This document shows, one piece after another, positions 8,053 to 49,048 of a stretch of DNA of 64,000 nt (position 1 is its first letter; the number at the start of each line of letters is the position of its first letter). The stretch comes from Agromyces protaetiae (GTDB taxonomy: Bacteria; Actinomycetota; Actinomycetes; Actinomycetales; Microbacteriaceae), in assembly GCF_030866785.1 (NCBI RefSeq), contig NZ_CP133018.1, positions 2,728,001 through 2,792,000 of the forward strand, written 5' to 3'. The translations under genes and the position numbers were made by a program. Below the pieces are notes generated by a model. That model ran no database searches. It had not been told where the DNA came from and saw only the letters and a program-made list of their open reading frames with translations.

Positions 8053-9387
8053 GTGGGCGATCCGGCACCTGGCTCCGACCGACGCGACGGCACCGACGAC
8101 GTCGGCGATCGCGAGCACGCCACACCGACCGGCCGGGTGCGCGACCAGCTCAACGACGCAGGCCGCGACGCGAAGGACCGCATCGACGACCTCCGTGAAC
8201 GGTTCGACCCGCAGATCCAGCGGGTGGCCTCGCTCACGGAGCGCACGCTCGCGTTCTTCCCGGTGCGGGTGTGGCGGCGGTTCCTCGCCCAGAACGGGTT
8301 CATCCTCTCCGCCGGGATGAGCTATCAGGCGCTGTTCGCGGTGTTCGCCGCGGTCTACGTCATCTTCGCCGTCGCCGGCATCTGGCTGACCGGCAACGCC
8401 GATGCGATGCAGGCGTTCATCGCCCTCGTGAACACCTACGCGCCCGGGCTGATCGGTGAGGACGGCGTCATCACCGACCAGGACCTGCAAGAGGTCGCGA
8501 CGGCGTCGACGAGCCTGTTCGGGCTCACCGGCGCCGTCGCGCTCGGCGGCCTGATCTGGACCGCGATCAGCTGGATCACCTATGCGCGCATGGCGGTGCG
8601 GTCGATGTTCGGCCTCCCCAAAGACATGCGCAACTACGTGCTGCTGAAGACGCGCGACTTCCTCGCGGGGTTCGCCTTCGGTCTGGTACTCCTGCTCGCC
8701 GCCGTGCTCTCGATCGCGACGACGTCGTTCCTCGACTGGCTCGTGGGATTGCTCGGCTGGGACCTCAGCTCGAGCTGGTCGAACGCCCTGGTGCAGTTCG
8801 GCGCGCTCCTCGTCGTGTTCATCATCGACACACTCGCGCTCGCGGTGATGTTCCGGTTCCTCTCGAACGCGGCCATGGCCTGGCGACGCATGTGGGTGGG
8901 CTCCCTGCTCGGCTCGGCAGGTCTCTCGGTGCTGCAGATCTTCGGCGGGCTCCTGCTCACCGGCGCCGGCAAGAACCCGTTGCTCGCGACGTTCGCGGTC
9001 TTCATCGGTCTGCTGCTCTGGTTCCGCCTGACCAGCATCGTGATCCTCGTCGCCGCCGCCTGGATCGCGGTCGAGGCCGCCGACGCGAACGAGTCGCTCC
9101 GGCGCCTCACACCGGAGCAGCGCGAGGCCGAGCGTCGCCGGCGCGAGCAGGAGGCGCTGCTGGTCGCCGCGAAGGTCAGGGTGCGGATGTCTCGCGAGGA
9201 GCTGGACAGCGCGAACTGGTTCGAACGCCCGCTCGCCAAACGCCGTCTCGCCAAGGCGGAGAGCGAACTCGCGAAGATCGAGGCGGCCCAAGCCGCGCAG
9301 GTCGAGCGGACGGGCGCGTCGGGCGCCGCACGGAACGGACGCAAGCCTGCGCCCGACCGGCAGGAGCATGTCGGCGGGCTCCCCTAG
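8053..9387 (+). CDS. YihY/BrkB-family inner membrane protein
   Basis: The protein has 444 residues. The N-terminal 60 residues are polar, followed by the family entry WRRFLAQNGFILSAGMSYQ. About six membrane segments lie between residues 90 and 350. The last 95 residues are a charged, helical cytoplasmic tail rich in Glu, Arg and Ala. The family (once misnamed ribonuclease BN) has no firm function; a transport or envelope role is usual speculation. The GTG start has no Shine-Dalgarno sequence. Instead TAGGGT ends exactly 6 nt before it, suggesting a leaderless mRNA. The gene stops 10 bp before exonuclease III. Confidence 0.88.
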   Translation: MGDPAPGSDRRDGTDDVGDREHATPTGRVRDQLNDAGRDAKDRIDDLRERFDPQIQRVASLTERTLAFFPVRVWRRFLAQNGFILSAGMSYQALFAVFAAVYVIFAVAGIWLTGNADAMQAFIALVNTYAPGLIGEDGVITDQDLQEVATASTSLFGLTGAVALGGLIWTAISWITYARMAVRSMFGLPKDMRNYVLLKTRDFLAGFAFGLVLLLAAVLSIATTSFLDWLVGLLGWDLSSSWSNALVQFGALLVVFIIDTLALAVMFRFLSNAAMAWRRMWVGSLLGSAGLSVLQIFGGLLLTGAGKNPLLATFAVFIGLLLWFRLTSIVILVAAAWIAVEAADANESLRRLTPEQREAERRRREQEALLVAAKVRVRMSREELDSANWFERPLAKRRLAKAESELAKIEAAQAAQVERTGASGAARNGRKPAPDRQEHVGGLP

Positions 9388-19802: not shown

Positions 19803-19986
19803 CATCCGCCGCTCGTCGCAGCATCCGTACCGCTCGTCGCGCCAGGCTCGCCGGCCGGGCGCGACGCGCGTAGGGTGATGCGGTTGCCACAAGCGACGAT
19901 TCCTTCGCTCCGCTGCCCGGACCACGCCTGACCGACGTTCCCCGCGGCGGGCACGTCCCACCAGCACCACGGAGTCATTGCAGGCG

Positions 19987-21357
19987 ATGTCCTCACCCAC
20001 CACCGCGGCCACGGCCGCGAGCACCGGTTCCGCCCCGGCCAACCCGCGCAGCCGGGTCATCCTGGCCAGCCTCATCGGCACGACGATCGAGTTCTACGAC
20101 TTCTACGTCTATGCCACGGCGGCGGTTCTCGTCTTCCCGCACCTGTTCTTCCCGACCGGTGACGCCACCACGGCGCTGCTGTCGTCGTTCGCCGTGTTCG
20201 GCGCGGCGATGGTCGCGCGCCCGCTCGGCGCCGTCATCTTCGGGCACCTCGGTGACAAGCACGGCCGCAAGGCGACGCTCGTCGGCGCACTGCTCACGAT
20301 GGGCATCGCGACGTTCCTGATCGGCGTCCTGCCGACCTATCAGCTCGTGGGCTGGTTCGCCCCGCTGCTGCTCGTGATCCTGCGCATCGGCCAGGGCTTC
20401 GCGCTGGGCGGCGAGTGGTCGGGTGCGGCGCTCGTCGCGACCGAGAACGCGCCGAAGGGCAAGCGTGCCTGGTACGGCACGTTCCCGCAGCTGGGGGCGC
20501 CGATCGGCTTCATCATCGCGAACGGGCTGTTCCTCATCATCGCGGCACTGTTGCCCTCGGACGACCCGTCGATGCCGTCGCAGGCATTCCTCGACTGGGG
20601 CTGGCGCATCCCGTTCCTGTTCTCGATCGTCATGGTCGCCGTCGGCCTGTGGGTGCGGTTGCGCCTCGTCGAGTCGACCGCGTTCTCGAAGGCGACGAAG
20701 CAGGGCAAGATCCAGCGTCTGCCGCTCGCGACCGTGTTCAAGGGGTACTGGAAGCAGCTCATCCTCGGCACGTTCTTCATGCTCGCGACGTACGTGCTCT
20801 TCTACCTGATGACCACGTTCTCGCTCTCGTACGGCCGCGCGCCGGTCGAGGCCGCCGAGGGCGCGCTGCCGGGCCTCGGCTACTCGTACAACACGTTCGT
20901 GCTCATGCTCATCGGCGGCGTGGTGTTCTTCGGCATCTTCACGCTGCTGTCCGGCCCGTGGGCCGACCGCTGGGGCCGTCGCCGCACGCTCATCTGGGTC
21001 ACGCTCGGCATCATCGTGTTCGGGCTCGTCTGGGTGCCGATGCTCGGCGCCGGGTTCTGGGGCGTCATGGCGTGGCTCATCGTGGGCTTCGCGCTCATGG
21101 GCATGACCTTCGGCCCGATGGGCGCGCTGCTGCCCGAGCTGTTCCCGACGAACGTGCGCTACACGGGCTCGGGCATCTCATACAACGTGTCGTCGATCCT
21201 CGGCGCCGCGGTCGCGCCGTTCATCGCGGTCGCGCTGTGGCAGGCCGGCGGCGGCAGCCCGTTCTGGGTCGGCATCTATCTGTCGTCCATGGCCGTGCTC
21301 ACCCTCATCGCGCTCTTCGTCTCCAAGGAGACGAAGGACGTCGACATGGACGCGTAA
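19987..21357 (+). CDS. MFS transporter, metabolite:H+ symporter (MHS) type
   Basis: The protein has 456 residues with about 12 membrane helices. MFS signature loops are GHLGDKHGRK after helix 2 and GPWADRWGRRR after helix 8. The N-terminal SLIGTTIEFYDFYVYATAA and RIGQGFALGGEWSGA segments are typical of the MHS branch (shikimate, alpha-ketoglutarate and betaine symporters). Substrate unknown. The start is the ATG at 19987, with GGAG upstream, rather than the TTG at 19978. The last 171 bp (21187-21357) recur at 22718-22888 with six base differences. Confidence 0.9.
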   Translation: MSSPTTAATAASTGSAPANPRSRVILASLIGTTIEFYDFYVYATAAVLVFPHLFFPTGDATTALLSSFAVFGAAMVARPLGAVIFGHLGDKHGRKATLVGALLTMGIATFLIGVLPTYQLVGWFAPLLLVILRIGQGFALGGEWSGAALVATENAPKGKRAWYGTFPQLGAPIGFIIANGLFLIIAALLPSDDPSMPSQAFLDWGWRIPFLFSIVMVAVGLWVRLRLVESTAFSKATKQGKIQRLPLATVFKGYWKQLILGTFFMLATYVLFYLMTTFSLSYGRAPVEAAEGALPGLGYSYNTFVLMLIGGVVFFGIFTLLSGPWADRWGRRRTLIWVTLGIIVFGLVWVPMLGAGFWGVMAWLIVGFALMGMTFGPMGALLPELFPTNVRYTGSGISYNVSSILGAAVAPFIAVALWQAGGGSPFWVGIYLSSMAVLTLIALFVSKETKDVDMDA

Positions 21358-21429: not shown

Positions 21430-21966
21430 TCAACCTCGAATGCGGGGGATGTCGCTGAGCCCGACTGCGAGGCTGGGTGGGCTCGGGAAGTTGTCGGCAA
21501 AACCGACCACAGTCACGACGTCGCCGAGCCTGTACTGGGCCGCGCGGATATCCCCGAGCGCCAGCGTCCCCGCAGATCGCCCCGGCCGCTGCAGCGCTTC
21601 TGTGATTTCGGCAACGCCGTACTCGAAGTCGAAGTCGCCGCCCTTCCGTTCGAACATGAAATCGTGGACATGAGGAGCGAGATACGGCTCTGCGGCGAAC
21701 GCGACGCGTGCCAGGGGCGCGCGTAGCCAGGTACGCACGGCGACATCGGCGTATCCGATCGGCCGAACAGAACGTCGGTACAGGGTGTCGATGTAACGCT
21801 CGTAAGGCGGCGAGCCCGGATCATTCGAACTCGCCCAAGCGAGACCGACGAACTCCATACCTGCGAAGGCGTTAAGGCCAGCGATGCGGTCGCGGTACTT
21901 TGCGATCAGCCGGGATTCGCGACCCGATGCATCGTCGGCTGGATCCATATCCGCCCGTGTCTCCAT
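21430..21966 (-). CDS. hypothetical protein (partner of a secreted orphan)
   Basis: The protein has 178 residues from the ATG at 21966; an ATG six codons later is also possible. No domain is recognised. It is soluble and mixed alpha/beta in appearance, with an aromatic-rich centre (EPYLAPHVHDFMFERKGGDFDFEYG) and no signal peptide or membrane helix. It starts 14 bp after the stop of the secreted orphan gene at 21980, so the two look like an operon. Codon use and base composition are less GC-rich than the flanking transporter and rib genes. The pair sits exactly between two copies of a transporter 3' end, consistent with acquisition or rearrangement. Confidence 0.6.
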   Translation of the reverse strand: METRADMDPADDASGRESRLIAKYRDRIAGLNAFAGMEFVGLAWASSNDPGSPPYERYIDTLYRRSVRPIGYADVAVRTWLRAPLARVAFAAEPYLAPHVHDFMFERKGGDFDFEYGVAEITEALQRPGRSAGTLALGDIRAAQYRLGDVVTVVGFADNFPSPPSLAVGLSDIPRIRG

Positions 21967-21979
21967 TATCCGCCCCACC

Positions 21980-22582
21980 CTATGAGCCTGCTGTCGGTCC
22001 ACCTGAAAAGCACACCGCGCCATTGACCAAGGTCGCGTAGGAGCCAGGCGTCACCTGAGCGCTCACTCCATGACTACTTCGTATGTACTTCTCGTGTGTG
22101 GCATCCCAGGTACCGGTCGTTGGGCCACCATCGAAATTCTCGTTCCAGCCGCCGTAGGAGTTGACGAGGGAGACGTTCCAGACATGCCAGAGAGTCGGCG
22201 CGTATACGCGGAACGCGGTGCCGATCCGTACCGCTTCGGGGCCATTTCGCGCGAGCAGAAGCGTCGATGTTCCACACGGTCCCTTGACCGTGCCCATCGT
22301 CCTGACCTCACCGCTCGCAGCACCAGCGCTCGTTTTCGCAGCTTCCGTGACCGGAACCGAGTACTCGCGACCCGAGTCATCGATTCGAATCTCGAAGCCG
22401 TGGGCAGCAGCGACATCATGATCGAAGTATGCAATGGTCATCGGCGCACTGATGCTGACTTCCTGCGACAGCTCATCATCGGGAGACGCGATAGCGGGTG
22501 TACCTCCACTCATGACGGCCAGTATTGAGGCACAGAGGATGGTGGCCCCCGTGATCCGCGCGGCTCGTCCGGTACTGATCAT
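21980..22582 (-). CDS. hypothetical secreted protein
   Basis: The protein has 200 residues. A clear signal peptide covers residues 1-32 (basic start, ATILCASILAVMSGG core, AIAS cleavage). The mature part has two cysteines (GPCGTST and AVCFSGG) that could form a disulphide, and an aromatic centre (WHVWNVSLVNSYGGW). No family recognised. GAAAGGA lies 8 nt before the ATG, a strong ribosome site. It is the first gene of a two-gene unit with the orphan at 21430. Lower GC than its neighbours suggests foreign origin. Confidence 0.7.
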   Translation of the reverse strand: MISTGRAARITGATILCASILAVMSGGTPAIASPDDELSQEVSISAPMTIAYFDHDVAAAHGFEIRIDDSGREYSVPVTEAAKTSAGAASGEVRTMGTVKGPCGTSTLLLARNGPEAVRIGTAFRVYAPTLWHVWNVSLVNSYGGWNENFDGGPTTGTWDATHEKYIRSSHGVSAQVTPGSYATLVNGAVCFSGGPTAGS

Positions 22583-22717: not shown

Positions 22718-22888
22718 GTGTCGTCGATCCTCGGCGCCGCGGTCGCGCCGTTCATCGCGGTCGCGCTGTGGCAGGCCGGCGGCGGCAGCCCGTTCTGGGT
22801 CGGCATCTACCTCTCGGCCATGGCCGTGCTCACCCTCATCGCGCTCATCGTCTCCAAGGAGACGAAAGACGTGGACATGGACGCGTAA
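22718..22888 (+). pseudogene. 3' fragment of an MHS transporter gene
   Basis: 171 bp coding for 56 residues plus stop match the last 171 bp of the intact transporter gene with six substitutions. Four are silent; two change residues (Ser to Ala, Phe to Ile). Similarity begins abruptly at GTGTCGTCGATCC, and the sequence to the left is unrelated AT-richer DNA. It has no ribosome site and could encode less than two membrane helices. It is followed by its own terminator, different from the one after the intact gene. This suggests it is the remnant of a paralogous transporter rather than a recent copy. Confidence 0.85.
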
Positions 22889-22973: not shown

Positions 22974-23021
22974 TTTGGTATATCGGAAGTGCGGTGTATC
23001 AGTATGGATGGCTACGATACT
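22974..23021 (+). promoter_or_regulatory. AT-rich promoter region of secreted SH3b-like copy 1
   Basis: An island of low GC contains TTTGGTATATC, GTGTATCAG, AGTATGG and CGATACT within 48 bp, between a terminator and copy 1. TGGTATA resembles an extended -10 box, and related boxes precede copies 3 and 4. Which one is used cannot be decided. Confidence 0.4.
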
Positions 23022-23063: not shown

Positions 23064-23774
23064 ATGCAACGTTCCAGCCCACGTGTCTTGAGCGGCCTGT
23101 GCGCCGTGGCCTTGAGCGCAGCTGCGCTCGGCGCGGCCACCCCCGCGCTGGCGAGCGAGACGATGCCGGCCACCCCGCAGGCGGACATCCTGATCGTCGA
23201 GGATGCCGTCGCCTATAGCTCGCCCCGCCTGGACACCGCCGTCGCCGCGGAACTCCAGGCCGGTGACGTGGCCCCGGCGTACTGCGTCTTCACGAACGCC
23301 GGCCTCGAGTGGGTGAAGATCTTCGCCGACGACGTGTTCGGCTACGTGCAGAGCACGAGCGTGGAGGACGGAGTCGGCTTCTTCCTCCCCCGCCAGTGCG
23401 CGAGCGAGATCGAGACGTTCACCCTCCCCGCACCCGGCATGACCTTCGCGACGCCGGCGTGGGGCGTGCCACTCGAAGGATTCACCTGCCCTCCATCCTT
23501 CCCCTTCCTCGACGGTCGGGTGAGATTCCGCTGGACTCCGTTCGTTGACTTCATCAACAACTGGAACATCCCGGGCGTGCAGGCCCAGCGACCGGACTCG
23601 ATCGGCATCGATCTCGGCACTCCCGTTGCCGTCGACGACCCGCACGGATCAGGCAGCTACATCGGCGGGTACACCGGCGGGTCGATGACCAACTCCGTGC
23701 TGTGGTCGGCGAGCGCCAAGCTCACGGCGACCTGCACGAACAATGCGACGTTCGCCGTTCTCGCCCCGAACTAG
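23064..23774 (+). CDS. secreted SH3b-like protein, array copy 1
   Basis: The protein has 236 residues; the ATG has AAGGAG 8 nt upstream. Residues 1-31 are a signal peptide ending ALAS. Residues 45-95 resemble a bacterial SH3b domain (AYSSPRLDTAVAAELQAG, then LEWVKIF and FGYVQS). Residues 110-236 form a second domain shared by all copies: an EIETFTLP start, a VPLEGFTCP-x3-PFL core, a GYTGGS turn and a CTNN ending, with two conserved cysteines. SH3b domains often bind peptidoglycan; the second domain is unknown to me. This copy and the one at 24621 are the closest pair. Confidence 0.85.
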   Translation: MQRSSPRVLSGLCAVALSAAALGAATPALASETMPATPQADILIVEDAVAYSSPRLDTAVAAELQAGDVAPAYCVFTNAGLEWVKIFADDVFGYVQSTSVEDGVGFFLPRQCASEIETFTLPAPGMTFATPAWGVPLEGFTCPPSFPFLDGRVRFRWTPFVDFINNWNIPGVQAQRPDSIGIDLGTPVAVDDPHGSGSYIGGYTGGSMTNSVLWSASAKLTATCTNNATFAVLAPN

Positions 23775-23787
23775 TGCGTGCGCGGGC

Positions 23788-23808
23788 GGGGAGCGGATGC
23801 CGCGGAGG
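23788..23808 (+). other. broken terminator (left arm only)
   Basis: GGGGAGCGGATGCC plus a short loop and GGC match the left half of the MFS terminator (21379-21399). The right arm is missing and replaced by the end of the P-loop gene. This marks a likely rearrangement breakpoint near 23809. Confidence 0.45.
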
Positions 23809-23818
23809 CGCGAACGAT

Positions 23819-24349
23819 TCAGGGCTCCCAGGTGAGGACGGCGTCTCGGAGCTCTGCAGGCGACCTGCTGCTGTCGAGCCGAAGTACGGGTTGTTCGAGT
23901 TGCGCGAGCCACGCTTCATGCCCGGCGCGGCTTCTGCCAGTGAACTCGGGATCGTCGTAGCTGCTCGCCCACGCCATGAACGCGCCCCAAGCCGCTTCGT
24001 CGATGGCCTCGCCCGATCGCCGCTGGGCCTCGCGTGCTTCCAGCCGGCGCAACCGTTCCGTCTGGTCCAGGGTCAGGAAGACCACCGCATCGCAGTCCGC
24101 GACGATGGCCTCACCCCAGCCGAGCATCGAACCGGATAGCACCCACGCTTCTCGCGGGACGAACACCTCACGCATCAGCGTCAGCCGGGCGCTTTGCGGG
24201 CGTTTGGTGACGTACGGCGGGATGGACGGGGTCCAGAAGTAGTCGTCCGCATCGGCGTGCGGTACCGCCCAGTGGTCAGCGAGTGCTCGGGCGAGCGTCG
24301 TCGTGCCGCTGCCACTCGCGCCCATCACGTGCAGTCTGGAACGTCGCAT
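23819..24349 (-). CDS. P-loop NTPase, adenylate-kinase-like
   Basis: The protein has 176 residues. The N-terminal P-loop is GASGSGTTTLA: a Walker A in which the usual lysine is threonine, a variant I associate with a family of small kinase-like proteins. A Walker-B-like strand (DAVVFLTLD) is followed by an Arg-rich LID-like segment (RLRRLEAREAQRRSG). Substrate unknown; nucleotide or small-molecule kinase is the best guess. It points against the flanking secreted genes and separates copies 1 and 2, with one end inside a broken terminator. The ribosome site is weak. Confidence 0.7.
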   Translation of the reverse strand: MRRSRLHVMGASGSGTTTLARALADHWAVPHADADDYFWTPSIPPYVTKRPQSARLTLMREVFVPREAWVLSGSMLGWGEAIVADCDAVVFLTLDQTERLRRLEAREAQRRSGEAIDEAAWGAFMAWASSYDDPEFTGRSRAGHEAWLAQLEQPVLRLDSSRSPAELRDAVLTWEP

Positions 24350-24489
24350 CCATCAATGATGGCCTGAACCGGAGGCCGCGCGAGATCGCAGACGTCGTGT
24401 CAGGCTGTGGCCGCGGCCCTTCCCGTTTCGCATGCGGTCGCACAGTTCCGGTCGGCGACCGTGTGAACATGCTAATATACCTATCTCCG

Positions 24490-24573
24490 TCGGCCACCCC
24501 GGCCGCCTGGGGCGTGCCACTGCGGGGGTTCGCGTGCCCCGCGGCCTTCCCGTTCCTACCGGATGCAGCCGGG
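24490..24573 (+). pseudogene. fragment of a fifth secreted SH3b-family gene
   Basis: 84 bp encode SATPAAWGVPLRGFACPAAF and PFLP, matching the VPLEGFTCP-x3-PFL core of copies 1 and 2; the bases TGGGGCGTGCCACT are identical to copy 1. Neither the signal peptide nor the SH3b part is present. The fragment lies 48 bp before the start of copy 2 and reads on into it in another frame. It is a relic of gene loss or recombination in the array. Confidence 0.75.
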
Positions 24574-24620
24574 AGTGCACACTTCGCGCTCGCCGCAACA
24601 ACAACCAAGGAGGACACCCC

Positions 24621-25322
24621 ATGCAGCGTCGGATCACCACACGGGTCTTGCCCGGCCTGTGCGCCGTCGTCCTGGGTGCATGTGCGCTCGGGTCGGCGGC
24701 GCCGGCACAGGCTGCCGAAACCACCCCGCCGGCGCCGCCACGGGTGGCCACCGTCAATGCAGCCGGGCCGGCATACAGTTCGCCGCGCCTGAACACGGCA
24801 GTGGCGGCGCAGCTTCAGGCTGGCGAACTGGTCTCGGTATTCTGCGGATTCACGAACGCGGGTCTCGAGTGGGTGAAGATCTTCGCACATGACTCGTTCG
24901 GTTTCGTTCAGAGTTCACGCGTGGCCGGCGGCGCCTCCGGTCTTCCCGGCGAGTGCCCGAACGAGATCGAGTCGATCGACCTCCCGGCGCCCGGCATGAG
25001 CTTCGGCTCACCGGCGTGGGGGGTCCCTCTTGAGGGTTTCACCTGTCCGTCGTCCTACCCGTTCCTCGACAACCGCCCACACACGCCGCCCGAGTTCTTG
25101 GACGGCGTGCTCACGACCTTCCTCCGAGGTGTGCAAATCGAACGAACGACCGGGGTCGCCGTCGACCTCGGTCGCGTGGTACCGGTGAACGACCCTCTGG
25201 GAACCGGCGAATACGTCGGCGGCTACACCGGAGGGTCGATCACCAACTATGTGGCCTGGGTGGCAAGCGCCAAGATCACGGCGACCTGCACGAAGAACGT
25301 GATCCACGCGCAGCGCGCGTGA
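24621..25322 (+). CDS. secreted SH3b-like protein, array copy 2
   Basis: The protein has 233 residues; AAGGAGG precedes the ATG. The signal peptide ends AQAAE near residue 33. The SH3b-like domain (AYSSPRLNTAVAAQLQAG, LEWVKIF, FGFVQS) is nearly identical in places to copy 1. The C-terminal domain has PNEIESIDLP, VPLEGFTCPSSYPFL, GYTGGS and CTKN. The middle of that domain (residues 155-185) diverges most between copies, which may be the specificity region. A strong terminator follows. An AT-rich box (GCTAATATACC, 24471-24481) lies about 140 bp upstream. Confidence 0.85.
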   Translation: MQRRITTRVLPGLCAVVLGACALGSAAPAQAAETTPPAPPRVATVNAAGPAYSSPRLNTAVAAQLQAGELVSVFCGFTNAGLEWVKIFAHDSFGFVQSSRVAGGASGLPGECPNEIESIDLPAPGMSFGSPAWGVPLEGFTCPSSYPFLDNRPHTPPEFLDGVLTTFLRGVQIERTTGVAVDLGRVVPVNDPLGTGEYVGGYTGGSITNYVAWVASAKITATCTKNVIHAQRA

Positions 25323-25350
25323 GCTGTCCCACTCTCGTTTCTTCGCGAGG

Positions 25351-25382
25351 AGCGGGGCGGATGCTGCAGCATCCGCCCCGCT
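25351..25382 (+). terminator. terminator of copy 2
   Basis: A perfect 14-bp stem (AGCGGGGCGGATGC with its complement) around TGCA lies 28 bp after the stop. The next gene starts 247 bp later; that stretch holds only the regulatory site at 25482. Confidence 0.8.
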
Positions 25383-25481
25383 TCTGCGCGTCGCGGGCAG
25401 TCGTGGCGCAGCCCGTGCAGGATCGAAGCGACGCTTCTCGCATTCTCATATTCTGAGCGAGCCGACCACCTGCCCCGCGTC

Positions 25482-25501
25482 ATTCCCATGCCATGGGGTA
25501 T
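25482..25501. promoter_or_regulatory. CsoR-like palindrome upstream of the copper-storage gene
   Basis: ATTCCC-N8-GGGTAT resembles the copper-sensor operator ATACCC-N8-GGGTAT with one mismatch, and its centre CCCATG C CATGGG is a perfect palindrome. A possible -10 box (TAACAT, 25553-25558) lies downstream, so the site would be upstream of the promoter, unusual for a repressor. No csoR gene is in the window. Confidence 0.35.
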
Positions 25502-25628
25502 CCGCCGCCTGTTCGGGTGTGGCAACCCCTTCAGGACGCGCGACCGCGCGCCTAACATGGCTCGCGGAGGGGTGGCCGAGTCGCAGTCGGCATCGTCGAC
25601 GCTCGTCACCCGGTGTGGGAGTGCGCGG

Positions 25629-26051
25629 ATGATGAACACCACGATGGACATGATGAAGGACGCCATGTCGACGACCCAGATGAAGGGCATGGACATGGCG
25701 ATGATGCAGGAGTGTATCGAGGCCCTCTCCGCGTGCGAGCAGGCGTGCGTCATGTGCGCCGACGCCGATGCGGGCGAGGGCATGGCGCGCTGCGCCGGCA
25801 TGTGCGCGAACTGCGCCGACCTCTGCGGCACCATGATGCGCATGATGCTCCGGCCGAACGGCTGGGACATGGCCGTCATGATGTCGACCATGGAGAGCAC
25901 CATGGCCATGTGCCGTGCGTGCTCGGCCGAGTGCATGATGCACGCGGAGATGAGCGAGCACTGCCGCATGTGCGCGATGGCCTGCGACCAGGCCGCCATG
26001 GCGCTCGAGAAGATGCTCGGCTCCATGCGTGGGATGATGCCCGCGATGTGA
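25629..26051 (+). CDS. Met/Cys-rich four-helix copper-storage-type protein (Csp/DUF326-like)
   Basis: The protein has 140 residues with about 30 Met and 13 Cys. Cysteines are spaced for helix-lining copper binding: CEQACVMC, CAGMCANCADLC, CRACSAEC and CRMCAMAC. This is the pattern of the Csp family, four-helix bundles that store many Cu(I) ions in the bundle core. No signal peptide, so it is likely the cytosolic type. The start is ATG 25629 (or the next codon) after GGGAG. It lies convergent to a His-rich small protein with a shared hairpin between them. Confidence 0.85.
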   Translation: MMNTTMDMMKDAMSTTQMKGMDMAMMQECIEALSACEQACVMCADADAGEGMARCAGMCANCADLCGTMMRMMLRPNGWDMAVMMSTMESTMAMCRACSAECMMHAEMSEHCRMCAMACDQAAMALEKMLGSMRGMMPAM

Positions 26052-26060
26052 CGCGCCTTG

Positions 26061-26114
26061 GAGAGCCGGTTCGGTTCCCGACGTTCAGGCGTCGGCGACG
26101 CTGAACCGGCTCTC
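26061..26114. terminator. bidirectional hairpin between convergent genes
   Basis: GAGAGCCGGTTC and GAACCGGCTCTC form a perfect 12-bp stem with a 30-nt loop. The right arm is inside the last codons of the minus-strand gene that ends at 26085. Confidence 0.6.
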
Positions 26115-26435
26115 GGCGTGCGCGAGCACGCCGTAGACACCGTGCACCGCGACCGGATCGCCGACGGTGAGCACGTCGTCGAGCGGCGCGTGATGCCAGA
26201 GGCGACGGATGCCTCCCCCGAGGTCGGCCACGGTGACGAAGCCCGCCCGGTCCACGTCGACGACGATCGCGTCGACCCACTTGCTCGGGGTTGCGTGCGC
26301 GAGGCGCGCCTGCACCGCATTCACGCCGTGCCCGGGCCGGTCGCTCACGCACGCCTCGTGCGACTCGCACCCGCGCATGACCATGACCCGGCCGGCGTGC
26401 GGCTGGGTGGCGGCGTGCGGTTCGGGGTGCGACAT
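26085..26435 (-). CDS. hypothetical small His-rich protein
   Basis: The protein has 116 residues from the ATG at 26435, chosen for the GGAG 6 nt upstream; the open frame extends to 26546. The first 35 residues are rich in His and contain one CESHEAC motif, a possible metal site. The rest looks like a compact beta-rich domain (WVDAIVVDVDRAGFVTVADL, then VGDPVAVHGVYGVL). No family recognised. Convergence with the copper-storage gene and the His/Cys segment hint at metal handling, which is inference only. Confidence 0.65.
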   Translation of the reverse strand: MSHPEPHAATQPHAGRVMVMRGCESHEACVSDRPGHGVNAVQARLAHATPSKWVDAIVVDVDRAGFVTVADLGGGIRRLWHHAPLDDVLTVGDPVAVHGVYGVLAHAESRFSVADA

Positions 26436-26558
26436 GAGAGCTCCTTGGATCGGTGCGAGCGACGATACGCCTGCCGCGCCGGCATGTCGCCGTGCGGCGT
26501 CACACACGGCAACACACCGGCCATCGGTGAGATCAGCGCCATGCATTTCCCTATCTAG

Positions 26559-26578
26559 TATACTGTTATGGTTATACT
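26559..26578 (+). promoter_or_regulatory. twin TATACT boxes upstream of copy 3
   Basis: AGTATACTG and GTTATACTG repeat at a 14-bp interval (TATACT at 26559-26564 and 26573-26578), in a short AT-rich island 65-84 bp before the ATG. Either could be a strong -10 box; the repeat could also be a regulator site. Confidence 0.5.
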
Positions 26579-26642
26579 GCTTCGTCCACGAAACCCGATG
26601 TTCATGATCGCGAAGCGACGTTCGAGCAAGAAGGGCACCTGT

Positions 26643-27320
26643 ATGAATCGCACCATCCGCCGCACCATCACCGGCCTGTGCGCAGCACTCGTCGGCGCGA
26701 CCGTGTTCGCGGCCGCGGCACCGGCGAACGCCGCCGACTCCGCGTTCGAAGGGCCGGCGGGCCAGCTCCGCGCGGTCGTCGAGCGTGGGGACCTCTTCCC
26801 TACACCGCGCCCCGTCGGCGCGATCGGTGCGGTCGACGCGGGCACGTCGGTCGAGGCCTACTGCGGGTTCGTCAACGACGGCGCCGAATGGGTCAAGGTG
26901 AACCAGGGGGGCAAGATCGGCTTCATCAGAAGCAACGCGCTGGACACGCGTGCGCGCGGCCTGCCGACGACCTGCCCGAGCGAGGTCGAAACCGTACAGA
27001 TCCCGACATTCGGGTACGACTTCGAGGTCACGGAGTCACTGGTCCCGGTGCCGGGGTTCACCTGCCCGGCCGGGTACCCCTACCTCCGCGACTTCCAGGC
27101 GCACGACACCCTCGAGCGCATCACACCCGGCGTGACGGTCAAACGCGATGAGGGCCGGGGCATCATCGTCGACACCGGGCTTCCGATCCACACCGTCGGA
27201 AACGGGTGGCGAATCCTCGGCTACACGGGTGGTTCGATGAGCAACTATGGCGGGGCGCAAACCGCCGGATTGATCGCCAGCTGCACAAGCAACCCTGACA
27301 AGGCCGCCACGTTTTGGTGA
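26643..27320 (+). CDS. secreted SH3b-like protein, array copy 3
   Basis: The protein has 225 residues; AGAAGGG precedes the ATG. The signal peptide ends ANAAD near residue 31. The SH3b-like part is residues 45-95 (VEAYCGFVNDGAEWVKVNQGGKIGFIRS). The C-terminal domain has PSEVETVQIP, VPGFTCPAGYPYL, GYTGGSMSNYG and SCTSN. It keeps both conserved cysteines and the GYTGGS turn, but the centre is unlike copies 1 and 2. A row of 14-bp repeats begins at its stop codon. Confidence 0.85.
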   Translation: MNRTIRRTITGLCAALVGATVFAAAAPANAADSAFEGPAGQLRAVVERGDLFPTPRPVGAIGAVDAGTSVEAYCGFVNDGAEWVKVNQGGKIGFIRSNALDTRARGLPTTCPSEVETVQIPTFGYDFEVTESLVPVPGFTCPAGYPYLRDFQAHDTLERITPGVTVKRDEGRGIIVDTGLPIHTVGNGWRILGYTGGSMSNYGGAQTAGLIASCTSNPDKAATFW

Positions 27321-27375
27321 GCAGAGCCTGGTGAGCAGACCTGGTGAGCAGAGCCTGGTGAGCAGAGCCTGGTGA
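27316..27375 (+). repeat. 14-bp direct repeats beginning at the copy 3 stop codon
   Basis: GGTGAGCAGAGCCT occurs about four times in a row, the second copy one base shorter. The first unit supplies the TGA stop of copy 3, so slippage would add sequence after the gene without changing the protein. Confidence 0.85.
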
Positions 27376-27391
27376 CCTGACCGTCGCCACC

Positions 27392-27430
27392 GGTGCCCGG
27401 CGTCCCGCAGCGTGCGGGGCGCCGGGCACC
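27392..27430 (+). terminator. terminator of copy 3
   Basis: GGTGCCCGGCG pairs with CGCCGGGCACC, with CCCGC/GCGGG pairing inside. Confidence 0.75.
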
Positions 27431-27461
27431 GTCGCGTTTCGCGCCGACTCGGCCCTCCGCC

Positions 27462-27505
27462 GTCAATATCAGTTGACGATCGGATCCGCGTCAACTACGG
27501 TTGAC
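27462..27505 (+). promoter_or_regulatory. promoter with twin operators before the small HTH gene
   Basis: TTGACG (27473-27478), a 17-bp spacer and TACGGT (27496-27501) form a good promoter. Two 16-bp palindromes share the pattern GTCAA-N6-TTGAC: GTCAATATCAGTTGAC (27462-27477) overlaps the -35 box and GTCAACTACGGTTGAC (27490-27505) overlaps the -10 box. The ATG follows the -10 box by 6 nt. The layout fits autorepression by the gene's own product. Confidence 0.75.
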
Positions 27506-27507
27506 GC

Positions 27508-27732
27508 ATGGACTCGACGATCCGCACCGCGATCGCCGCCGCCGACGGCGACGACCCGTACCGCGCCCTCCGCCAGCTGCACCACGCCCGAATCGAGCTC
27601 ACGCGCGAGCTCGACCGCGCTGAAGCCCTCGCCGTGCGTCGCGCCCGCACCGCGGGCGCGAGCTGGCAGGTCATCGCCATGGCCCTCGAGGTCAGCAAGC
27701 AGGCCGTGCACAAGAAGTACGGGCGCGGCTGA
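27508..27732 (+). CDS. small helix-turn-helix protein
   Basis: The protein has 74 residues. The N-terminal 45 residues are a charged helix (RQLHHARIELTRELDRAEALAVRRAR). The C-terminus is a helix-turn-helix of the GASWQVIAMALEVSKQAVHK type seen in small actinobacterial regulators. The start codon has no ribosome site and follows the -10 box by 6 nt, so the mRNA is probably leaderless. It lies between copies 3 and 4 of the secreted array, but its palindromes were not seen before those genes, so control of the array is not supported. Confidence 0.75.
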   Translation: MDSTIRTAIAAADGDDPYRALRQLHHARIELTRELDRAEALAVRRARTAGASWQVIAMALEVSKQAVHKKYGRG

Positions 27733-27757
27733 CCCCGCACATCGTCGCACAACATTC

Positions 27758-27766
27758 TGGTATACT
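27758..27766 (+). promoter_or_regulatory. extended -10 promoter of copy 4
   Basis: TGGTATACT matches an extended -10 box (TG, one base, TATACT), 76 bp before the start of copy 4. No clear -35 box, as expected for this promoter class. Confidence 0.5.
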
Positions 27767-27841
27767 GGGAGGCCATCGGCTCCGATCGGGCCGAGACGCA
27801 CCGTTCCGGGCGAACCACGCTCGGTTCAGAAAGGGCATCCA

Positions 27842-28552
27842 GTGCAGTCACTCGCGCATCGCGCACTCATCGGGCTCTCCGTCGCGGCCATCGGGGCCGG
27901 CGTGCTCACCGCGGGCACGCCGGCGTTCGCCGCCACCTCCGAATCCGTCGCCTCAGTGCAGGAGAGCGAAGTCCAGACCACGGGTCAATGGCGGAAGGCC
28001 TTGCACGACGTCGGACTGGTGAACACCCCGCGTCGCGGCGTCCCGCCCGTCGCCCAGATCCCGGCCGGATCCCCACTCGAGGCGTTCTGCGCCTTCGCGC
28101 ACGACGGGCAAGAGTGGGTGAAGGTTCAGCACGTCGGTCAGTTCGGGTTCGTGCCGAATACCTCGATCACGGGCGGCAGCGCCGGACTCCCCCGCGAGTG
28201 CCCGAGCGAGATCGAGACCATCGACATCCCCGTGTTCAACCACGACTTTGCGTGGGGTGAGCACGGGGTGCCGCTCACGGGATTCACCTGCCCCACGAGC
28301 CAGCCCTTCCTTCTGGATCACAAATACCACCTCAACCCGTTCATGCTCGTGCCGAAGGGCGTCCGCGTGACGAACGAGGACAAGCTCATCCACGCGAACG
28401 CCGGCAACCCGACGTCGACCACGCACCACGGGGTCCAGTTCATCAACGGATTCGAGGGCGGCAGCGTCAGCCACTGGGGCAGCATGCTGCAGCAGAACGG
28501 CCAGGTCTGGGTCAGCTGCACCAACAACGTCGACAAGGCGTACCAGCACTGA
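27842..28552 (+). CDS. secreted SH3b-like protein, array copy 4
   Basis: The protein has 236 residues from a GTG start with AGAAAGGG upstream. The signal peptide ends AFAAT near residue 31. The SH3b-like part (LEAFCAFAHDGQEWVKVQ, QFGFVPN) spans residues 60-105. The C-terminal domain has PSEIETIDIP, VPLTGFTCPTSQPFL and SCTNN; the GYTGGS turn is replaced by GFEGGS. The most diverged of the four copies. The function of the family is not known to me. Confidence 0.83.
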   Translation: MQSLAHRALIGLSVAAIGAGVLTAGTPAFAATSESVASVQESEVQTTGQWRKALHDVGLVNTPRRGVPPVAQIPAGSPLEAFCAFAHDGQEWVKVQHVGQFGFVPNTSITGGSAGLPRECPSEIETIDIPVFNHDFAWGEHGVPLTGFTCPTSQPFLLDHKYHLNPFMLVPKGVRVTNEDKLIHANAGNPTSTTHHGVQFINGFEGGSVSHWGSMLQQNGQVWVSCTNNVDKAYQH

Positions 28553-28565
28553 TCGTCGGTCACCC

Positions 28566-28610
28566 CGGGCGCCGCCCAGCCACGGCGCGTATGCTGCATG
28601 GCGGCGCCCG
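28566..28610 (+). terminator. terminator of copy 4
   Basis: CGGGCGCCGCC and GGCGGCGCCCG form an 11-bp stem with a 23-nt loop, 14 bp after the stop. Confidence 0.6.
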
Positions 28611-28658
28611 AGGCATCCGCACCTGTCCTTTCCGGCGCCGCGCCCCCAGGAAGAGGAC

Positions 28659-48550: not shown

Positions 48551-49048
48551 TCAGGCATACGAGTCGTTGACGTCGGAGGTGCAGTGCACGTCCACGCGGT
48601 AGGACACGGCACCGTCGCCACTGCCGCCGCCCTCGCCCTCGCTGGTCAGCGTCACCCGATTCAGACCGTACGGGCCGAGGCCGACCGCCGTCTTGTCCTC
48701 GAGCCTCGTGAGCACCGCACGGATGTCGACGGCGAGCTCACCGGGACCGCCCGCCCCGATCGTCACCTCCACTCCCGGCGTGAGCCGCCAGGGAGGACCC
48801 CCGTACATCTCGTTGAACACAAACGGATGCGACTCGGGGCATCGCACCTCCTCGACGAGCTGGGTCTCGCCGGCCCCGATCGTTCGCCAGTGCCCCTCGA
48901 TCGTGATGCGTTCGGACGTCGACGGTGCGATGGCGACCGAAGCCGCAGCGGCACCGCCGCCACCGATGCCCACTCCGCCGAACAGCAGGGTCGTGGTCGC
49001 GGCTGCCGCCGCGACCGTTCTCGCCGTCGCCAGACACCGTGCCCACAT
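48551..49048 (-). CDS. secreted protein, distant relative of the SH3b-array C-terminal domain
   Basis: The protein has 165 residues; GGAGGGGAAGG precedes the ATG. The signal peptide is residues 1-37, ending AAAAS. The mature part has VRCPESHPFVFNE, PGVEV and VDVHCTSDVNDSYA. These align in order and spacing with the CP-x3-PFL core, the GV-V strand and the CTNNVDKAY end of copies at 23064-28552. The SH3b half is absent. It is the same domain alone, 20 kb from the array. Function unknown. Confidence 0.7.
   Translation of the reverse strand: MWARCLATARTVAAAAATTTLLFGGVGIGGGGAAAASVAIAPSTSERITIEGHWRTIGAGETQLVEEVRCPESHPFVFNEMYGGPPWRLTPGVEVTIGAGGPGELAVDIRAVLTRLEDKTAVGLGPYGLNRVTLTSEGEGGGSGDGAVSYRVDVHCTSDVNDSYA

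Follow-up and report, generated by a model that had tools for sequence, protein, structure and literature searches.

Here we show that a tandem array of four genes in a 64,000-nucleotide stretch of the Agromyces protaetiae genome (contig NZ_CP133018.1, positions 2,728,001 to 2,792,000; hereafter the window) encodes proteins in which a bacterial SH3-like (SH3b) domain is joined to a second, C-terminal domain (C-domain), and that the C-domain belongs to a real, undescribed family of probably exported proteins. The domain is now defined by a usable profile and a confident structural model, with about 27 genes in this one genome and members in few congeners. On the basis of sequences, domain layout, predicted folds, family size, a shared upstream motif and restricted distribution, we tentatively propose, at a little less than even confidence, that the family forms a repertoire particular to this lineage, made up of small, exported beta-domain proteins that are stabilised by disulfides and attach to the cell envelope or its glycans, most likely within a contact-competition or kin-recognition programme of Rhs genes. 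The promoter box shared with Rhs genes offers a testable clue to how a toxin arsenal that is dispersed and not kept in gene clusters could be operated by a monoderm actinobacterium; if C-domains bind walls or glycans, they would reveal what such an arsenal recognises.

The array and its C-terminal domain

Members of the family in the window are as follows.

23064..23774 (+): copy 1, 236 amino acids (aa); signal peptide, SH3b, C-domain; tree partner P0010 (100/99)
24499..24567 (+): remnant of a fifth copy, C-domain core, between the box at 24468-24481 and copy 2
24621..25322 (+): copy 2, 233 aa; signal peptide, SH3b, C-domain; structure predicted
26643..27320 (+): copy 3, 225 aa; signal peptide, SH3b, C-domain; relatives P0006, P0008 (Agromyces aerolatus) and P0012
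27842..28552 (+): copy 4, 236 aa, GTG start; signal peptide, SH3b, C-domain
48551..49048 (-): stand-alone C-domain family member outside the array (match 48557-48865)

The four array reading frames lie exactly where an original prediction made from the window had placed them, copy 4 beginning with GTG at 27842; the remnant and the minus-strand gene are both absent from that prediction. Copies 2 to 4 are 58, 36 and 34 percent identical to copy 1 in end-to-end alignment, and the alignment of the four translations contains 47 invariant columns over its full length. The motifs that the prediction named co-align in it, although only GFTCP is identical in all four copies; VPLxG reads VPVPG in copy 3, the GYTGGS turn is GFEGGS in copy 4, and in place of the CTN end copies 2 and 3 have CTKN and CTSN, respectively. 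Likewise, the two conserved cysteines claimed are indeed invariant in the C-domain (142, 224), but the total is four, the others lying around the SH3b domain (74, 112, copy 1 numbering). The invariance of all four suggests two disulfides per array protein, one at the SH3b/linker and one in the C-domain.

By predicted fold the N-terminal domain is an SH3b domain, with a conserved Trp in the four-copy alignment. In contrast to the SH3b proteins of the NlpC/P60 and muramidase types, the array proteins have no recognised catalytic partner and are fused to an undescribed C-domain. That this C-domain belongs to no known family was borne out, as no curated model in Pfam, NCBIfam or PHROGs exceeded its cut-off. 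Among 29 members the sole Pfam match was DUF1133 (E 0.0066), and DUF1133 elsewhere reached 14.5 bits against a cut-off of 23.1; the Pfam scans listed no lectin family for the C-domain, NCBIfam gave no match to it, the best PHROGs match for the four array copies had an E of 0.21, and no sequence relative was found in the Protein Data Bank (best E 0.25). The fold comparison that the prediction had called for, made by Foldseek with the C-domain model against structure libraries other than the viral one, likewise returned no match at E 0.001 or better; weak neighbours include lectins, tail fibres, pilins and adhesins. The likeness to H-type lectins (Helix pomatia agglutinin) and to pyocin or phage fibre knobs is not significant, and membership is not claimed. 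Searches of the open-licence part of PubMed Central (PMC) brought up no paper recognisable as concerning this family. The C-domain family is most likely envelope- or glycan-binding.

Successive profiles recovered 7 places in the A. protaetiae genome (four-copy alignment, remnant included), 14 (17 rows) and, with alignments of the C-domain, 22 (15 rows) and 27 (29 rows). Because 25 of the 27 places are rows of the 29-row query they match by construction, and the places new to that profile are two, at 1.795 and 3.687 Mb; the 25 rows had been obtained from earlier profile searches (22), through the box described below (one, at 2.120 Mb) and by eye beside another member (two, at 3.650 Mb). The 27 places correspond to 26 genes, one with two domains, and a neighbour recognised by eye alone (8073-8489 of locus L122) brings the family to 27 genes at 15 loci. 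These comprise the four SH3b array genes, the two-domain gene, one in which the C-domain ends a protein of five He_PIG repeats, and 21 small stand-alone genes. A crude rule predicts 21 of the 27 to be exported; outside the array, members share 16-29% identity with copy 2.

Elsewhere the family is sparse. With the 29-row profile, 3 of 60 genomes of the genus match (A. protaetiae and two congeners, G328 and G340). In the family-level sample 1 of 299 genomes matches, and in the phylum sample 2 of 396 (A. protaetiae and G677). While genus searches scored up to 48, 85 and 86 candidates per genome, the broad searches (four-copy profile, family sample and phylum sample) scored at most 9, 17 and 13, so that absences there are soft. 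Not counted are the match in G231 and those in the congeners G321, G142 and G336, as well as one of the two G328 matches, all of which are limited to the first 35-53 positions, roughly the signal peptide. G677 is an actinobacterium from a different family; it has C-domains at six places, which represents an expansion beyond the genus, and an (A/S)-x-N-W-like motif is present in four of five proteins read there.

Fifteen full-length proteins (P0001-P0015, partial P0016 excluded) were placed in a tree, with 4 of 12 inner branches drawn open. In it, copy 1 groups with P0010, copy 2 with P0007 (100/100), copy 3 with P0006, P0008 and P0012 (100/99), and copy 4 with P0005 and P0009 (97/97); P0008 and P0015 are the relatives named A. 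aerolatus. As every window copy groups with its own foreign relatives, the duplications seem older than these lineages, and the four copies are probably not of recent origin. Regional identity is uneven inside the ortholog groups and inconsistent between them: it is lowest in the centre (GV..GYxGG, 0.63) in the copy-3 group and in CP..GV (0.41) in the copy-1/2 group, whereas the copy-4 group is nearly even, at 0.50-0.56 once signal and tail are left aside.

Other origins and roles were considered and rejected. Recent foreign islands are not indicated by the GC content of the 24 family genes checked (0.63-0.72, against 0.70 in the window), and no match was found for copy 2 among phages, for copy 4 among plasmids or for the copy-1/2 group among viral contigs. 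The copy-3 group had no match in GTDB r220 contigs, where records of the same genome may be left out. No PADLOC anti-phage defence family matched the four copies, two stand-alone members or two Rhs proteins.

A promoter box common to the family and Rhs genes

Many family genes have TATACT a few bases upstream of the start codon. The pattern TATACT-N4-9-ATG occurs at 15 sites in the genome, compared with 3 for the reversed pattern, and 5 of these lie upstream of family genes and 6 upstream of Rhs-like genes. Since the Rhs-like genes had been met through the box, Rhs N-termini were then searched by protein, giving 25 places in the 4.18-Mb genome (one a short fragment, one weak at E 1.2e-5); Rhs repeats (PF05593) pass the Pfam cut-off in two of three proteins scanned and fall below it in the third. 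The nine Rhs C-termini read look unlike each other. Gene calls outside the window were made with a simple codon-based script, not taken from annotation.

A 14-column motif, tATAcTGATATgCT, was learned from the 25 Rhs upstream regions alone and then tested on the family at a threshold of 10 bits. It is present in 23 of the 25 Rhs regions (its own training set) and in 15 of 27 family regions, compared with 8 of 269 for other genes of the same loci (p 9.8e-13); without the family gene first met through the box, the count is 14 of 26 (p 7e-12). By comparison, 200 column-permuted motifs matched a mean of 1.3 and a maximum of 6 of the 27 family regions. The background is itself raised, as some loci were chosen for the box and four of the eight background matches stand in intergenic regions that also border a family or Rhs gene. 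The motif matches on the reverse strand too, in 11 of the 27 family regions and 12 of the 269 others, and so is partly palindromic. Genome-wide, ATAYTGATATNCT with up to two mismatches has 66 sites, compared with 5 when the pattern is reversed; 16 of the 66 have one mismatch or none, and these precede Rhs genes (7), family genes (5) or neither (4).

Around the array the best sites of the Rhs-derived motif are as follows.

24468..24481 (+): AT-rich box CATGCTAATATACC, 14.6 bits, upstream of the remnant and copy 2
26559..26572 (+): AT-rich box TATACTGTTATGGT, 17.9 bits, 70 nt upstream of copy 3
27753..27766 (+): AT-rich box CATTCTGGTATACT, 12.5 bits, 75 nt upstream of copy 4

The claim that each copy has its own promoter-like box fits copies 3 and 4; the best site for copy 2 precedes the remnant, and copy 1 has a site of only 6.1 bits, besides a reverse-strand site at 22993-23005. 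A plain -35/-10 scan found no promoter on the coding strand of the array.

Within the sampled genus, both the Rhs type and the box are confined to A. protaetiae, and the C-domain family is nearly so. A 150-residue query of the Rhs type matched 1 of 60 genomes and none of the 59 congeners, in which the box with at most one mismatch has 13 sites in 9 genomes, about as many as the reversed pattern (11). One of these, in G349, lies 59 nt before the gene for a 104-aa exported SH3b-only relative, and the single family gene of G340 has a leaderless variant of the box. In A. protaetiae, other proteins with signal-peptide-like starts and a box-like site upstream lie at L170, L176, L186 and L197, including one of 628 aa that looks RCC1-like by eye, and may be part of the same set.

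Proposed role and competing explanations

According to our proposal, the SH3b domain would tether the four array proteins to peptidoglycan and the C-domain would serve as a variable binding module for the envelope or its glycans. Many members appear to be expressed, often without a leader, from AT-rich promoters of the extended -10 type that also precedes Rhs genes, and for this reason the family most likely acts in the same programme. This would be contact competition or the recognition of kin on the cell surface, with the proteins as adhesin, decoy or shield. The family is possibly deployed with the Rhs arsenal, the promoter likeness to these toxin-like genes hinting at a common role in dealing with other bacteria. 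A comparable case by description is TagV of the Serratia type VI secretion system (T6SS), which PMC7614798 presents as an exported SH3b accessory protein that aids contact toxin delivery and is a proposed peptidoglycan binder; it shares export and an SH3b domain with the array proteins, and differs as a lipoprotein of a diderm with a T6SS. The originally suggested roles (wall binding, surface competition or recognition) are partly supported as a whole. We find more doubtful a stronger version, in which the secreted Rhs proteins (about 25) and the exported binders of walls or glycans (about 27), dispersed singly or in small clusters and linked mainly by the extended -10 box, would form a single-lineage programme with the C-domain family as its recognition or surface-protection half.

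A number of observations weigh against our main proposal. The SH3b region scores at best 17.8 bits (gathering cut-off 27) and lies below the cut-off of every bacterial SH3 family in Pfam (PF08239 SH3_3, SH3_4, SH3_16), and enzyme domains, DsbD and viral coats are also among the weak fold neighbours of the C-domain. The motif falls below 10 bits in 12 of 27 family genes, copy 1 included, and by our count only 26 of the 66 box-like sites precede Rhs or family genes; some of the other 40 lie near regulators, lipoprotein genes or other exported proteins, or inside genes. Rhs and family loci are not clustered above chance (of 15 family loci, 3 have an Rhs place within 25 kb, the number expected being 3.0; p 0.15), and G328 and G340 have a C-domain gene and no match to the A. 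protaetiae Rhs type. The box may be only a strong -10, or an extended -10 without regulatory meaning.

A rival explanation is that the box is a plain extended -10 suiting some fast-evolving genes, and that the C-domain proteins are functionally unrelated to Rhs, which we consider unlikely while granting it a substantial chance. The motif contains TGNTATNCT, an extended -10, and TGNTANNNT is already described as an extended -10 of Mycobacterium tuberculosis in PMC3898074. In 10 of the 27 family genes and 7 of the 25 Rhs genes, TATNCT is placed 4-9 nt upstream of an in-frame start codon, the position expected of the -10 in a leaderless gene (12 of 25 Rhs genes have it within 260 nt), and the absence of clustering and the 40 sites before neither gene set fit this explanation as well. 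Nevertheless, TGNTANNNT occurs in 13 of 27 family and 10 of 25 Rhs regions but in just 5 of 269 neighbouring ones, conservation of the motif continues upstream of TG, and the box precedes only 3 of 48 exported-like neighbours (p 3e-6 versus family), compared with 5 of 221 others.

Exported immunity or inhibitor proteins acting at the envelope against Rhs-type toxins or kin bacteriocins would account for the like numbers (27 family genes, 25 Rhs places) and the common box and lineage, and an immunity family with signal peptides, Imm65, is reported in PMC3482391. We nonetheless regard this as improbable. Members persist in G328 and G340 without that Rhs type. Immunity genes normally adjoin their toxin gene; C-domain genes differ from Rhs-associated immunity genes in this respect, as none directly follows any of the nine Rhs genes whose surroundings were read, and each of the 15 family loci lies 4.6 to 374 kb away from the closest of the 25 Rhs places. 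An operon of family genes with Rhs was not seen. Compared with the Rhs polymorphic toxins themselves, with which the family has the AT-rich box and the lineage in common, the array copies carry no Rhs repeat by Pfam scan and the loci are not adjacent.

A housekeeping role at the wall, for example as regulators of peptidoglycan hydrolases without catalytic activity of their own, would suit the SH3b domain, the signal peptides and the many single genes between core genes, and is the least probable explanation given the presence of the family in 3 of 60 genus genomes and 1 of 299 in the family sample (few candidates scored) and the low identity of members outside the array to copy 2.

Surroundings of the array

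Hairpins downstream of the copies are as follows.

25344..25390 (+): copy 2, z -5.5; candidate terminator lacking a T run
27391..27431 (+): copy 3, z -4.3
28563..28613 (+): copy 4, z -2.7

The terminators predicted for copies 2 to 4 alone correspond to these hairpins, with none after copy 1 (z +1.3), but a strict scan, which requires a T run, found no terminator on that strand.

Upstream of the array, the 171-nt 3' end (21187-21357) of an MFS-transporter-like gene (19978-21357) recurs with 96% identity at 22718-22888, 1.5 kb downstream. Between the repeats lie two minus-strand reading frames without a Pfam match, 21430-22023 and 21980-22582, the latter with a signal-peptide-like start, and the repeat-flanked interval resembles an insertion accompanied by a duplication. 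Between copies 2 and 3, 25629-26051 (+) encodes a Cys/Met-rich protein of 140 aa with a weak box (8.4 bits) upstream and no Pfam match, which we take to resemble four-helix copper-storage proteins. Between copies 3 and 4, 27508-27732 (+) encodes a 74-aa protein, also without a Pfam match and presumably helix-turn-helix-like, as judged by eye. Short TGGTGAGCAGAGCC repeats occupy 27315-27380 (+), at the extreme end of copy 3.
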